From contig CAIXXY010000008.1 of the NCBI GenBank assembly GCA_903923535.1, positions 1-36,321 of the forward strand: a DNA stretch of 36,321 bases, read 5' to 3'. The notes under the pieces are model-generated. The model was not told where the DNA came from, searched no databases, and saw only the letters and a list, made by a program, of their open reading frames with translations. Within the stretch, counting starts at the first letter, position 1. Every line of letters starts with the position of its first letter. The position numbers and the translations under genes were made by a program. Source of the stretch: Candidatus Staskawiczbacteria bacterium (lineage in GTDB: Bacteria > Patescibacteriota > Minisyncoccia > Minisyncoccales > Staskawiczbacteraceae). Below, one piece after another: positions 4,189-26,658 of this stretch.

Positions 4189-4257
4189 GATTTTTTTATA
4201 CTGAATTTATAGAAATGTGGGCGACACAGGACTTGAACCTGTAACCTTTCCGACTTG

Positions 4258-4362
4258 TCCGCCTAACTTTTGGGTGGGTGATGCTGGACTCGAACCAGCG
4301 ACCTTTGCAATGTGAATGCAACGCTCTAACCAACTGAGCTAATCACCCAAAAGTTAAGCGGA
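4258..4362. repeat. 18-nt inverted arms around tRNA-Val
   Basis: Arms at 4258-4275 and 4345-4362 (TCCGCTTAACTTTTGGGT and its near-perfect complement, one G-U) enclose tRNA-Val and overlap the outermost bases of its acceptor stem. The outer part (CAAAAGTTAGGCGG) closely resembles one arm of the palindrome in the L10 leader (CAAAATTTAGGCGG), which suggests a split copy of the same repeat family. Confidence 0.65.
4275..4348 (-). tRNA. tRNA-Val(CAC)
   Basis: A complete 74-nt cloverleaf: acceptor GGGTGAT/ATCACCC, D-stem GCTC/GAGC, anticodon arm TTGCA-TTCACAT-TGCAA with anticodon CAC, T-arm GCTGG-TTCGAGT-CCAGC, discriminator A. CCA is not encoded. The gene lies entirely inside the anticodon loop of another tRNA on the same strand. 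Confidence 0.9.
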
Positions 4363-4430
4363 TGAATAAACGGAATGCTCCGCCATTGAGCTAGTCGCCC
4401 ATATTCAGATATTTTATCACTTTTTAAACA

Positions 4431-10522: not shown

Positions 10523-11863
10523 ATGAATAAAAAAACACAAAGTAAACTTAAAGTAGAATACGTTTCGATAACCGAACTCCATGTATCAGAATACAACCCC
10601 CGCAAATGGAGCAAGGAAGCAGCTATTCAATTAAAGGAAAGTATTAAGAAATATGGGATTGTTGATCCCCTCTTAGTTAACTCAGCTACCAACAGAAAAG
10701 GAATTGTCATTGGCGGACATTTTAGGTTGTCGGTTATCAAAGAGCTGGGATACAAAGAAGTACCCGTCGTCTACTTAAATATTCCAGACCTAGAAAAAGA
10801 AAAAGAACTAAATATCCGGCTCAATAAAAATACTGGAGAATTTGACTGGGCCTTGCTGGCAAAACTGGACGAAGCATTTTTATCGCAAGTCGGATTTTTA
10901 TCTGAAGAGTTGGATGACATTTTCCAAATCGAAGATACCCCGGAGCAATTTGATTTGGAAAAAGAGCTTAGAAAGTTGGACATTACCAAGATTGAAATAC
11001 AGAAAGGAGATGTTTACGACTTAAATGGCAGCCACCTAATGTGCGGTGACTCCACAATCGCAGAAAATGTAAAAAAACTTATGGGCGATGAAAGGGCTAG
11101 TATGTGTTTTACCGATCCGCCGTATATTTTAGACTACCTGCATGGAAAGAAGAAAAATGGTAAAGCCATCACCGGTTTTGGAGCCAAAAGGGACCGACGA
11201 TATTTAGAGACCGATTCCCTACCGGATAATTTCACTGAGCTTTGGATGAAAAACATAAAAGATGTTGCCAAAGAAGATTTTCATATAATCGTTTATGAAA
11301 ACTGGAAGAATATCAGGACTATTTGGAATGAAATGGAAAAATATTGGAAAGTGAAAAATATGATAGTCTGGCACTTGCCAAACCGAGTACAGGGATTTGC
11401 CGCCAAGTATAAGTTCTTTAACAAGCATGATATTGCCATGGTCGGACAATCCGGGGACCCAGTTACAAACGACGAGCCAGAGTCAGAACTGCTTCAAAAC
11501 GATTATGAAACTGCTCTCTACGCCATTTCTGGCAAACCGCATTGGGAGGGATACGAGAAAGGCAAAAAGATTTGCCCGACAGATTTCTTAGAGTTTAAAG
11601 CAGCCGATGAAAAATCCAGCGGACAAGGCATCATATTCGGCACAAAGCCCATAGAAATCCTAATCCCCTACATTAAAGTTTTGACTAAACGAGACGATCT
11701 TATAGTAGAACCGTTTGGTGGATCGGGCTCCACCTTAATCGCTGCAATAAAAATGAAAAGGAGGTGCTACCTCATGGAAAAGTCGCCAGTATATGCGGAG
11801 GTCATTAAAAATCGATGGGAAAAATTAACAGGGCTAAAAGCTCAAAAAATATATGGAAACTAA
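10523..11863 (+). CDS. ParB-like domain fused to an N6/N4 DNA methyltransferase
   Basis: 446 aa. Residues ~12-95 are a ParB/sulfiredoxin-like domain (ISITELHVSEYNPRK-type start, GGHFRLSVIKELGY at 64-77). Residues ~155-446 are an adenine or cytosine-N4 DNA methyltransferase of the beta order: motif IV DPPY (198-201) precedes motif I EPFGGSGS (396-403). Such ParB-methyltransferase fusions are common in phages and integrated elements, where they modify phage DNA. The stop overlaps the next gene by 11 bp, so it is translationally coupled to the small terminase gene. Confidence 0.9.
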   Translation: MNKKTQSKLKVEYVSITELHVSEYNPRKWSKEAAIQLKESIKKYGIVDPLLVNSATNRKGIVIGGHFRLSVIKELGYKEVPVVYLNIPDLEKEKELNIRLNKNTGEFDWALLAKLDEAFLSQVGFLSEELDDIFQIEDTPEQFDLEKELRKLDITKIEIQKGDVYDLNGSHLMCGDSTIAENVKKLMGDERASMCFTDPPYILDYLHGKKKNGKAITGFGAKRDRRYLETDSLPDNFTELWMKNIKDVAKEDFHIIVYENWKNIRTIWNEMEKYWKVKNMIVWHLPNRVQGFAAKYKFFNKHDIAMVGQSGDPVTNDEPESELLQNDYETALYAISGKPHWEGYEKGKKICPTDFLEFKAADEKSSGQGIIFGTKPIEILIPYIKVLTKRDDLIVEPFGGSGSTLIAAIKMKRRCYLMEKSPVYAEVIKNRWEKLTGLKAQKIYGN

Positions 11864-12225
11864 TACTTCTTATAATCAAACCGTACAGCAAAGACAGGGG
11901 AAAAATAAAAAGTCTTTGCTCAACACATTAAAGGAAATGCCCATCATTGAAGTTGCAGTAAAAAGGGTTGGCATCAGCAGAGATACATATTACCGCTGGA
12001 GGCAGGATGACCAAGAATTCTTTCAGCAAAGCGAAGATGCTATATTGCAGGGCATTGAGTTTATCAATGACATGAGCGAATCACAGCTCATCACGTTGAT
12101 TAGAGAAAAAAAAGATGCCGGCGATTGCTTTGTGGTTGAAACACAATAATTTGAGATATATGAAAAATGGCCGGAATGAAAAGGAAGACCCTGGCCCAAA
12201 TACAATTATCTTAACAGATGACTAA
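11853..12225 (+). pseudogene. Small terminase subunit-like protein, frameshifted at an A8 run
   Basis: The N-terminal part has a helix-turn-helix (EVAVKRVGISRDTYYRWRQD) followed by a helical segment, the pattern of phage small terminases. The frame as given stops at 12147-12149 after GDCFVVETQ. One base after the run of eight A (12106-12113) the plus-one frame continues as MPAIALWLKHNNLRYMKNG and stops at 12223-12225. That is what the family normally looks like after LIREK (a xAIxxWLKHN segment), and the stop then overlaps the ATG of the large terminase. Seven A instead of eight would give one 123-aa protein. A sequencing error, a real mutation or slippage are all possible. Confidence 0.7.
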
Positions 12226-13612
12226 TATGAAAAACTACAAAAAAGAAATCACTTTTAACGAAATCTGTAACTTTACAGAAAAACAAAAAGAAGCCTGCAT
12301 AGCAGTTAGAAAATATAAATTTGTGTTATTCGGAGGCGCGATGGGTGGCGGAAAATCATATTTTCTAAGATGGCAATTAATACGTCTCCTTTTGGAATTT
12401 AATGCCAAAGAAATTAAGCATGTGACTGTTGGCTTGTTTTGCGAGGACTACCCTTCTCTTGATGACAGGCATCTTTCAAAAGTAAAGTTTGAATTCCCAT
12501 GTTGGCTTGGAAATTATAACTCAAGCGAACGTAATTTTGTTTTGAGAGAAAAATGGGGCGGAGGCATACTTGCTTTCAGAAACCTTGATGATGTTTCCAA
12601 GTATCAATCCTCAGAGTTTGCTGCCATTGCGGTTGATGAGCTCACAAGGAACAAGGAAGAAATATTTATTACCCTACGCACGCGACTCCGCTGGCCGAAA
12701 ATAGAGGGCACTCGGTTTATAGCCGCCAGTAACCCCGGAGGCATTGGACACGAATGGGTCAAAAAATTATGGATTGATAAAGTATGCTATCCAAACGAAA
12801 AACAAGCAGATCAGTTTGTTTATATCCCGGCACTACTCAAAGACAATCCACATATTGACCCTTCCTATATAGAGCAGATAGAAAGCATACCTGATGAAAA
12901 AAAACGAAATGCCTATTTAAACGGTAATTGGGACATTTTTGAAGGCCAGTATTTTAGCGAGTGGGACAGAGAAAAGCACGTGATTAAACCATTCAAAATT
13001 CCTGATTCTTGGTTTTGCTTTAGGTCTATTGATGTAAGCGGAAGATCCGGCATCACTTCCTGCCATTGGTATGCATTAGATCATAGCGGTAATGTTTGGG
13101 TGTACAGAGAACATTACGCAACGGGTTTAGATTCTGACCAGCATGCCGAAAGGATAAAGGAATTAAGCGAGAATGAAGAATATAGATATACTGTATACGA
13201 TAATTCTGCAGATGCTAAACTCGGCTTGCCAGAGACTACATCCGAGATATACCTTCGCCATGGAGTTAATCTAGATGTGCCATCAAGCAAAAAAAGGGTA
13301 ATGGGCTGGGACGTTGTTCACCAGTACATGCGTTGCGATGAAAACAACGAACCGAAGTTGAAAATTTTTGAAAACTGTCCGAATATGATCCGAGCCATAC
13401 CAATGCTTATTCATGACGAAAATAACAAAGATGACGTTGATCCAAGGGGAGAATGTCACGCAGCCGATGATTTGCGTTACTTTTTGCAGACCCTAAGGGA
13501 ACAAAAATCGCCGAGGCCGTTAACTCCGGTGCAAAAAAGACTTTTAGAAATAAGAGAATCTGCGGGCTATGAAAATCCTTACGACGGACTGTTCCAAGAT
13601 GAAACAGAGTAG
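12218..13612 (+). CDS. Phage terminase large subunit
   Basis: DNA-packaging motor and nuclease, 464 aa. ATPase: Walker A GGAMGGGKS (39-47), Walker B AAIAVDE (135-141), coupling motif AASNPGG (169-175). RNase H-like nuclease: Asp272 in SIDVSG, Asp328 in VYDNSA, and Asp417/418 in HAADDLRYFL. All expected motifs are present, so it could be active. The ATG overlaps the stop of the restored small-terminase frame. No portal, protease or capsid gene follows; transcription ends at a strong terminator 15 bp on. Confidence 0.93.
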   Translation: MTNMKNYKKEITFNEICNFTEKQKEACIAVRKYKFVLFGGAMGGGKSYFLRWQLIRLLLEFNAKEIKHVTVGLFCEDYPSLDDRHLSKVKFEFPCWLGNYNSSERNFVLREKWGGGILAFRNLDDVSKYQSSEFAAIAVDELTRNKEEIFITLRTRLRWPKIEGTRFIAASNPGGIGHEWVKKLWIDKVCYPNEKQADQFVYIPALLKDNPHIDPSYIEQIESIPDEKKRNAYLNGNWDIFEGQYFSEWDREKHVIKPFKIPDSWFCFRSIDVSGRSGITSCHWYALDHSGNVWVYREHYATGLDSDQHAERIKELSENEEYRYTVYDNSADAKLGLPETTSEIYLRHGVNLDVPSSKKRVMGWDVVHQYMRCDENNEPKLKIFENCPNMIRAIPMLIHDENNKDDVDPRGECHAADDLRYFLQTLREQKSPRPLTPVQKRLLEIRESAGYENPYDGLFQDETE

Positions 13613-18590: not shown

Positions 18591-18766
18591 AGTTGATAAC
18601 TTTATCGCGGGGAAACAAAAAAGGTCTCCCGACACAGCGGCAATCCCTTTCGGAATCACCCTACACCCTTTCGGATATAGACCTAGACAATAAGCGCTGG
18701 TCAGAAGACCATCTTTATTGTCTAGGAATTTTTTGCCATGCCCGAAATTATTATTTCGAGTTTAGG
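18591..18766 (-). ncRNA. Structured 5' leader of unknown family
   Basis: On the minus strand the leader folds into several strong elements: a small CTCGAAAT/ATTTCGGG hairpin (~18740-18760), a 12-bp perfect stem CCTAGACAATAA/TTATTGTCTAGG (18682-18693/18715-18726) with an inner TGGTC/GACCA helix, and then a domain closed by GGTCT/AGACC. That domain holds a 9-bp hairpin with a GAAA loop (GGTGATTCC/GGGATTGCC) and a second CCGAAAGG loop. The closing AGACC is followed by six T. This could be a riboswitch with a terminator, but I cannot assign a class. Confidence 0.5.
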
Positions 18767-18771
18767 CCCAT

Positions 18772-25341: not shown

Positions 25342-26658
25342 ATGCAACAAACAACAACGCAATTCAGTGGCCACACGGCACCAACCATTGTCACTACTCC
25401 TATCAAGTACTGCCTTTATGCTCGAAAAAGCACTGAGTCCGAGGAACGCCAGATCTTGAGCATTGATAGCCAAATAAAAGAAATGTTGGCTGTCGCACAA
25501 CAAGGAAACCTGGATATTGTAGAAATCAAACGCGAATCCCATTCTTCAAAGGAGGTTGGTCAAAGACCTATATTTAACCAAATGATTTCCGAAGTCCGGG
25601 AAGGAAAATACAACGGCATTCTGACCTGGGCGCCAGACCGATTGAGCAGAAATGCCGGCGACTTAGGATCGATGGTTGATTTGATGGATCAGAAACTATT
25701 GGTGGAAATAAGAACACACAGCCAAGTGTTTACCAATAATCCAAACGAGAAGTTTCTGCTCATGATCCTCGGAAGCCAGGCAAAGCTAGAAAATGATAAT
25801 AGAGGTATAAATGTGAAACGTGGGATGAAAACAAAATGCGAAATGGGCTGGAGGCCTGGAACTGCTCCAACCGGGTATTTGAACGAAAAAAATGTAGACA
25901 AAAGGGGTCAGTGCCATCCGGATCCAAAAAGAGCTCCTATTATTAAGCAGGTATTTGAGAAAATAGCTTTCGAGCAATGGCCAGGCAGAAAAGTGCACGG
26001 CTGGCTAAAAAACATGGGTTTCAAAACTAAATACGGTAAGCCACTTAGCTTATCAAACATCTATCTTCTTCTAAGAAACTCATTTTACTACGGCGAATTT
26101 GAGTATCCGAAAAAGAGTAATCAATGGTATCAGGGGAAGCACACTCCAATAATCACTAAAGAATTATTTGATAAGGCACAAGCAGTAATAAACGCAAACC
26201 TTATACCAAAAGTTGAATCAAGAGAATTCGCATTCACTAAAATGATAAAATGCGGACACTGCGGATCAGGAATATCAGCCGAAGAAAAAATGAAACAGCT
26301 CAAAAGTGGCGGATTCAACAAACACATTTATTATTTCTGCACAAAAGGGAAAGGATTGGAGTGCGATAACCCACGAATTAATGAGCCGGATTTAATCAAC
26401 GAACTGGTGAATCTAATAGACAGAATAAATCTAGATGAACTAGGAATTAAATCGCGAATCAACCAAGAGATTGCAAGATTCAATAAATTCAGAATCGGAG
26501 TGCTTGGTTACAAACAAGAAGCTCACGAGTCAGGGGTCAATGCAAAAAATTACGTAAAATATTTACTCAAAGAAGGAACACTAATTGAAAAACGCGAACT
26601 ACTATTTTTTCTGAAAAGCAAACTAATTCTGAAAGATAAAAAGATTGTTCTTGAGTAG
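25342..26658 (+). CDS. Serine recombinase (site-specific integrase)
   Basis: 438 aa. Resolvase domain (~20-165) with the nucleophile Ser30 (YARKST), the SIDSQ segment and LTWAPDRLSRN. Recombinase domain (~190-300) with GTAPTGYLNE and YYGEF, then a zinc ribbon (KCGHCGSGIS...YFCTKGKGLECDNP) and a short helical tail. This is the large serine integrase class, though the C-terminal coiled coil is short. It probably integrated the island. It is the only mobility gene seen and is read toward the right att candidate, 64 bp past its stop. Confidence 0.92.
   Translation: MQQTTTQFSGHTAPTIVTTPIKYCLYARKSTESEERQILSIDSQIKEMLAVAQQGNLDIVEIKRESHSSKEVGQRPIFNQMISEVREGKYNGILTWAPDRLSRNAGDLGSMVDLMDQKLLVEIRTHSQVFTNNPNEKFLLMILGSQAKLENDNRGINVKRGMKTKCEMGWRPGTAPTGYLNEKNVDKRGQCHPDPKRAPIIKQVFEKIAFEQWPGRKVHGWLKNMGFKTKYGKPLSLSNIYLLLRNSFYYGEFEYPKKSNQWYQGKHTPIITKELFDKAQAVINANLIPKVESREFAFTKMIKCGHCGSGISAEEKMKQLKSGGFNKHIYYFCTKGKGLECDNPRINEPDLINELVNLIDRINLDELGIKSRINQEIARFNKFRIGVLGYKQEAHESGVNAKNYVKYLLKEGTLIEKRELLFFLKSKLILKDKKIVLE

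Follow-up and report, generated by a model that had tools for sequence, protein, structure and literature searches.

Two of the described systems stand closest to the locus presented here, one in function and the other in structure. In tRNA-dependent lysogeny, an actinobacteriophage brings a tRNA of its own to make up for the host tRNA that it destroys (PMC10865867); the invading unit is a whole phage, which employs a tyrosine integrase and a common core of about 10 bp. Rickettsia palindromic elements (RPE) and MITEs (PMC10969869) are short dispersed palindromes, several of them lying in frame in protein genes. Neither of these systems includes a hairpin that carries a tRNA only and nests repeatedly.

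Such a hairpin was found in the window, by which we mean the whole stretch of 36,321 nucleotides analysed here, from a Candidatus Staskawiczbacteria genome of 755 kb in 66 contigs. We consider, with a probability of about 0.85, that a tRNA-Val gene once stood at the locus and that a short palindromic element, bearing an intact tRNA-Val, broke up its anticodon loop. An earlier note on this DNA had regarded nested tRNAs as undescribed in bacteria; in the searchable literature, which leaves subscription papers and preprints outside, we likewise found no description of them or of these palindromes in Patescibacteria, a large group made up of very small and for the most part uncultured bacteria.

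Anatomy of the nested locus

The arrangement that the earlier note had placed at 4218-4400 is real and its coordinates are right; the strand, not given there, is minus. An intact tRNA-Val(CAC), 4348-4275, lies inside the anticodon loop of a second tRNA-Val gene, 4400-4218, and the following features can be distinguished:

4411-4424, minus strand: promoter-like motif AAAAGTGATAAAAT, assigned by similarity only, 10 nt 5' of the outer tRNA and 62 nt 5' of the inner one
4367-4400, minus strand: 5' half of the outer tRNA-Val (presumably a dead gene), positions 1-35, GGGCGACTAGCTCAATGGCGGAGCATTCCG TTTA, ending with TTTA of the anticodon loop; called as tRNA-Val by ARAGORN with CA restored
4363-4366, minus strand: left end of the element, the letters TTCA, which are the same in all 21 distinct nests, partly by selection, since TTCA is part of the search pattern
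4349-4362, minus strand: 5' hairpin arm, TCCGCTTAACTTTT, pairing over 14 bp and with 0 mismatches to the 3' arm; the arms covary across nests
4275-4348, minus strand: inner intact tRNA-Val, anticodon CAC, found by ARAGORN and Rfam (RF00005, 73.6 bits) and present in the tRNA list of the genome
4258-4271, minus strand: 3' arm of the hairpin, AAAAGTTAGGCGGA, pairing with the 5' arm
4254-4257, minus strand: right end of the element, CAAG; CAAG or CAGG in nests whose right side is present, and not part of the pattern used to scan the GTDB collection
4218-4253, minus strand: 3' half of the outer tRNA-Val from position 38, T-CGGAAAGGTTACAGGTTCAAGTCCTGTGTCGCCCA, that is T CGGAA AGGTT ACAGG TTCAAGT CCTGT GTCGCCC A

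In the outer gene the D and T stems pair, as do the acceptor over 7 bp and the anticodon stem over 5 bp, in line with the earlier note. The insert (4366-4254) is 113 nt long and contains the inner tRNA as its sole gene; the length of 118 nt given previously holds for the insert together with five retained loop bases, not for the insert itself. The arms of the presumed 18-bp helix do pair, but over 14 bp, without mismatch and with one G.U pair; a longer helix arises only if GGG of the tRNA pairs with the spacer CCC, which separates the 3' end of the inner tRNA from the 3' arm, rather than with its acceptor partner. Folding of the minus strand between 4210 and 4410 gave -82.5 kcal/mol (z = -7.4), a value equalled by 0 of 200 shuffles, and the motif TTCAYCC-N90-120-GGRCARG has 1 match in the window against 0.02 expected.

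At this locus ARAGORN and Rfam called the inner tRNA-Val(CAC) alone, in agreement with the full tRNA placed earlier at the tip of the helix. Because both programs report the innermost tRNA only, nests are likely to be invisible in present gene lists. A cmscan of the whole window with all Rfam families showed just the tRNA at the locus, consistent with the reported lack of a group I core. The inner gene is the sole intact tRNA-Val(CAC) found in the genome, in which every anticodon was found once; the outer gene, for whose identity another tRNA was to be sought, is itself a Val gene. The locus is neighboured by rplL and rplJ upstream and by a small ORF downstream.

Several other features of the window deserve mention. 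Just upstream of tRNA-Tyr(GTA), the segment 34543-34568 (minus strand), GGGGGCGTGT-CCCCACACCAAAATTA, resembles the first part of another tRNA-Tyr with a hairpin arm behind it, and is a probable 5' remnant of another nest in the window. LOOT RNA (RF03000, 77.4 bits) occurs at 18639-18768 on the minus strand. Genes for a ParB/DNA-methylase fusion, a terminase-like protein and a large serine recombinase near tRNA-Trp (10523-13612 and 25342-26658, plus strand) are perhaps remains of an integrated element.

The insertion rule and its recurrence

The earlier note had proposed a comparison with related genomes, and the same arrangement was indeed met in many independent assemblies. A nucleotide search of relatives uncovered two further nests, one from the same genus (G009) and one from the family (G016), and pattern searches added more. 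The GTDB genome collection was scanned once with the left-end motif and a D-arm, the isotype of the inner tRNA being left free; of the 32 loci obtained, 26 are nests, in about 25 genomes, and the other 6 are unrelated. The titles of these genomes are Patescibacteria names or plain bin labels, and include Niyogi-, Lloyd-, Buchanan-, Sungi-, Berkel-, Veblen-, Kerfeld-, Lipton-, Doudna-, Portnoy-, Taylor- and Staskawiczbacteria. Every readable inner tRNA in them (24/24) is Val, even though the pattern was isotype-free. All nests come from draft assemblies, nearly all labelled as metagenome-assembled.

The insertions follow a common rule: on one strand or the other of a tRNA-gene loop, TTCA-arm-[tRNA]-arm-CAAG takes the place of a single CA dinucleotide. 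When the outer halves of 21 forward nests were joined with different fillings and submitted to ARAGORN, restoration of CA yielded a recognised tRNA in 16, of which 14 had the identity and anticodon of the inner tRNA; with any of seven other fillings, such a match was obtained in at most 2 nests. The rule is obeyed by Val(TAC), Val(CAC), Gly(CCC), Leu(CAG) and Met(CAT) nests. In the window, the outer gene with CA restored reads TAC and thus does not match the inner CAC, and the Ile(GAT) nest L004 is without the left TTCA. As CA of the loop is replaced by the element, the anticodon of the outer gene is destroyed; the nests show this replacement and not a clean target-site duplication. In the anticodon loop or D-loop of Thr(TGT), Val(GAC), Pro(GGG) and Gln(CTG) nests, the CA to be replaced is on the opposite strand, and for this reason the element is inverted (CTTG...TGAA); the inner and outer tRNAs still run in the same direction. 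The tRNA-bearing hairpins measure 109-132 bp and contain no gene except the tRNA. Their arms pair in 93.3% of cells across nests, compared with 67.9% after shuffling (0 of 500 shuffles were as high), with 53 double changes versus 15.8 in shuffles, and pairing falls to 51-56% when the partner is slid by one column.

Up to three complete levels of nesting occur. L050 (G147:C24) is a complete triple nest, tRNA-Val in tRNA-Val in tRNA-Val, in the outermost copy of which the D-loop contains a hairpin as well and the 3' end is duplicated behind a further palindromic insert; L123 is a complete double nest. In L096 (Portnoybacteria, PEYL01000040) six successive 5' parts of tRNA-Val form a row, with just one outer 3' half remaining; here the 5' halves persist and the 3' halves are lost. 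In the genome of the window itself seven tRNAs are carried by hairpins of this kind that have outer halves beside them on one or both flanks, namely Val(CAC), Val(GAC), Thr(TGT), Gly(CCC), Pro(GGG), Leu(CAG) and Ile(GAT), and there are 5' remnants of Met, Lys(CTT) and Tyr. A scan of 55 genomes with the exact motif, a small sample bound to that motif, placed 13 of 13 tRNA-bearing hairpins in a remnant of a tRNA gene, with matching isotype wherever the outer gene was readable.

Two further observations concern these loci. Some contigs end inside nests (L039 in G026:C35, with a tandem repeat of the 5' half at the contig end, and L187 and L188 at the ends of C8 and C9 of G016), and nests probably break assemblies. 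The T-loops of dead tRNA copies hold other palindromic inserts (L015 in G025, L044 and L012 in G009, L004 in G000); several of these end with GCCTTCGGGCAACT, and in some cases a duplicated tRNA 3' end or another intact tRNA of the same isotype comes next.

Plain hairpins, with the same ends and no tRNA, were also detected. There are 8 exact copies in the genome of the window, as compared with 1 for a reversed control pattern, and 7 of them lie inside open reading frames, including secA, dnaG, rpoD (sigma-70) and rpsJ (S10); one in a relative lies inside uvrB. The plain TTCA-hairpin-CAAG loci crossing these open frames are L265-L276, L219, L203 and L197, and the length of several plain hairpins is incompatible with the frame under strict two-base replacement. 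Such a distribution is RPE-like behaviour.

Several other readings of the element were considered and rejected. For a Y1/RAYT transposase as mover (an element of REP/RAYT or IS200/IS605 descent), there are 3 Y1_Tnp genes in this genome and none in G009 at the threshold used; the flanks of the Y1_Tnp loci examined contain no TTCA-hairpin-CAAG element with a G/C-rich arm. The 113-nt insert of the window, which holds the tRNA only, includes neither an integrase nor a shared att core. The sole IMG/VR match (L098), which would represent a viral carrier, is a tRNA-Val that lacks both an outer tRNA and arms that match. A large island would have carried the 3' half to a distant place, but within the limits of the pattern no convincing half of this kind was found elsewhere in seven genomes in which the 5' half alone was seen (L066, L068, L071, L080, L086, L097, L101). 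Integron attC-like arms are suggested by GTTAGAT/ATCTAAC, which fits GTTRRRY/RYYYAAC in some nests; this reading does not hold generally, since the arms of others are CCCGCC or CCCCCACACC.

Resident gene, newcomer and rival explanations

The position of the promoter-like motif points to the outer gene as the one that occupies the resident position, since the distance from the motif is 10 nt for the outer tRNA, 62 nt for the inner one and 8-25 nt for un-nested orthologs. The motif AAAAGTGRTAAAAT, or one similar to it, stands 5' of tRNA-Val(CAC) at a distance of 8 nt in G004 and 23-25 nt in G013, G023 and G025, a variant is located 8 nt 5' of tRNA-Val(CAC) in G006, and in the nested G009 the motif lies 16 nt 5' of the outer tRNA. 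A generic promoter scan did not flag the motif of the window (4424-4411). By its place behind the motif, the outer tRNA would be an old resident, now dead, which the inner one replaces. The inner tRNA is 98.6% identical to tRNA-Val(CAC) of G020, a member of another genus, and the outer tRNA is 93.1% identical to the inner tRNA of G016, while the two tRNAs of the window share 71.6%, a pattern that suggests repeated replacements across lineages.

Elsewhere, outer copies decay by acquiring additional palindromes in the D- or T-loops or by losing a half; interrupted or lost outer halves were seen in G009, G016, G147, L066, L068, L080, L096 and others. In the window, the outer gene has G21, as opposed to A21 in 107 of 108 intact tRNAs of these genomes. 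Joining the loop across TTTATTCA...CAAGT so as to obtain 7 nt is possible in six single ways, which give CAA, TAA, TAA, TAT, TAT and TAT, none of them a Val anticodon. Considering this failure of splicing together with G21 and the decay observed elsewhere, we conclude that the outer gene of the window is most likely a recent fossil. This supports the second of two possibilities raised in the earlier note, namely that a repeat plus tRNA had destroyed the outer gene.

One plausible course of events under the interrupted-gene explanation is that the transcript would start at the old promoter, pass through the outer 5' half and enter the hairpin, from which RNase P and 3' trimming enzymes would release the inner tRNA. 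Only this tRNA would then work, the outer halves being discarded fossils, and later rounds would strike the new working tRNA and create Russian-doll nests. The inner copies may be of horizontal origin. Isotype and orientation could be maintained either because other insertions into a single-copy essential tRNA would be lethal, or through targeting by tRNA homology.

The latter idea leads to a refinement of the preferred explanation rather than to an exclusive alternative. Through the similarity of its tRNA, the hairpin would find a resident of the same isotype, and tRNA genes would be the true target rather than places where landing is tolerated; we put this forward tentatively. It is favoured by the 13 of 13 tRNA-bearing hairpins in tRNA remnants, with plain hairpins found mostly in protein genes. 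However, survival of the host alone would also impose an isotype match, the scan was confined to an exact motif in 55 genomes, and the identity between the inner and outer tRNAs of the window is just about 72%.

Some facts sit uneasily with the interruption of a tRNA gene by a palindromic element. No transposase or recombinase is tied to the hairpins, and the exact loss of two bases is unusual for a transposon. The mismatch of TAC and CAC in the window, the absent left TTCA of L004 and the plain hairpins whose lengths break the frame under strict replacement also count against it. Moreover, free transposition predicts some tRNA-bearing hairpins in neutral DNA too, and those found are in tRNA-gene remnants; targeting or local formation may be involved.

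The first possibility of the earlier note was that the outer tRNA is functional and that splicing removes the hairpin, along with the inner tRNA, from the anticodon loop, freeing two tRNAs. Pairing of every outer stem in the window agrees with this, as does the recurrence of the internal loop TTYATTCA/CAAGY with co-varying arms, which a processing motif might show; joining TTTA to CAAGT would even put TAC at positions 34-36, but in a 9-nt loop. Nevertheless, we find a nested intron very improbable. The 7-nt joins provide a Val anticodon in 0 of 6 cases, the motif occurs also inverted, in D-loops and in protein genes, unlike an RNA splicing signal, and outer halves are often broken or missing. 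In addition, the inner tRNA already supplies the isotype of the outer one, G21 of the outer gene departs from the nearly universal A21, and Rfam shows no intron family at the locus. An assembly artefact, in which a chimeric contig joined two tRNA-Val loci through their shared tRNA sequence, might be suspected since all sources are metagenome assemblies and some contigs (in G026 and two of G016) end within nests, but it is scarcely credible in view of the same ends, the same CA and co-varying arms in about 25 independent assemblies and in both orientations, and of the synteny (rplL, tRNA, following ORF) common to the window locus and G004.

Returning to the palindromic element, it offers a way for single-copy, presumably essential tRNA genes to undergo one replacement after another and keep their function, through DNA too small to encode an enzyme, and the fossils of 5' and 3' halves provide a readable order of the replacements. 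This joins two questions, how short RPE-like palindromes move and why tRNA genes diverge between close relatives among Patescibacteria. A further and rather speculative step would be to see in it a minimal self-spreading tRNA gene, a hairpin with a tRNA only which homes into residents of its own isotype, kills them, takes over their promoter and is then itself invaded. If that were true, the tRNA sets of Patescibacteria would be swapped gene by gene via horizontal homing.

Comparison with known systems

Interrupted tRNA genes and fragments left by mobile elements are known from archaeal intron-containing and split tRNAs, among them the disrupted tRNA-Thr of Caldiarchaeum (PMC3293823); the archaeal introns are spliced, whereas the outer gene described in this work is lost and has no fitting splice junction. 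Dada DNA transposons of eukaryotes likewise use fixed sites inside tRNA genes, with a DDE transposase, target duplications of 6-7 bp and many tRNA copies, and they are not reported to bring a replacement tRNA (PMC3706591). Genomic islands (Islander, PMC4383910; archaeal tyrosine recombinases, PMC8371274) also insert into tRNA genes, with the anticodon and T loops among their sites, and fragments are displaced in the process. They restore the split gene through sequence shared at attL/attR and carry an integrase, neither of which is the case here.

The RPE resemble the present hairpins by build. Unlike them, the palindromes described here have TTCA/CAAG ends, belong to a different phylum, and exist in a version with a complete tRNA at the tip, which resides in tRNA genes of matching isotype. 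With tRNA-dependent lysogeny they share the supply of a tRNA of the isotype destroyed (14 of 16 recognised outer genes). In contrast to the actinobacteriophages, a hairpin of 109-132 bp with nothing but a tRNA takes the place of a whole phage, the same CA is replaced in several loops and isotypes, and the nesting is repeated.
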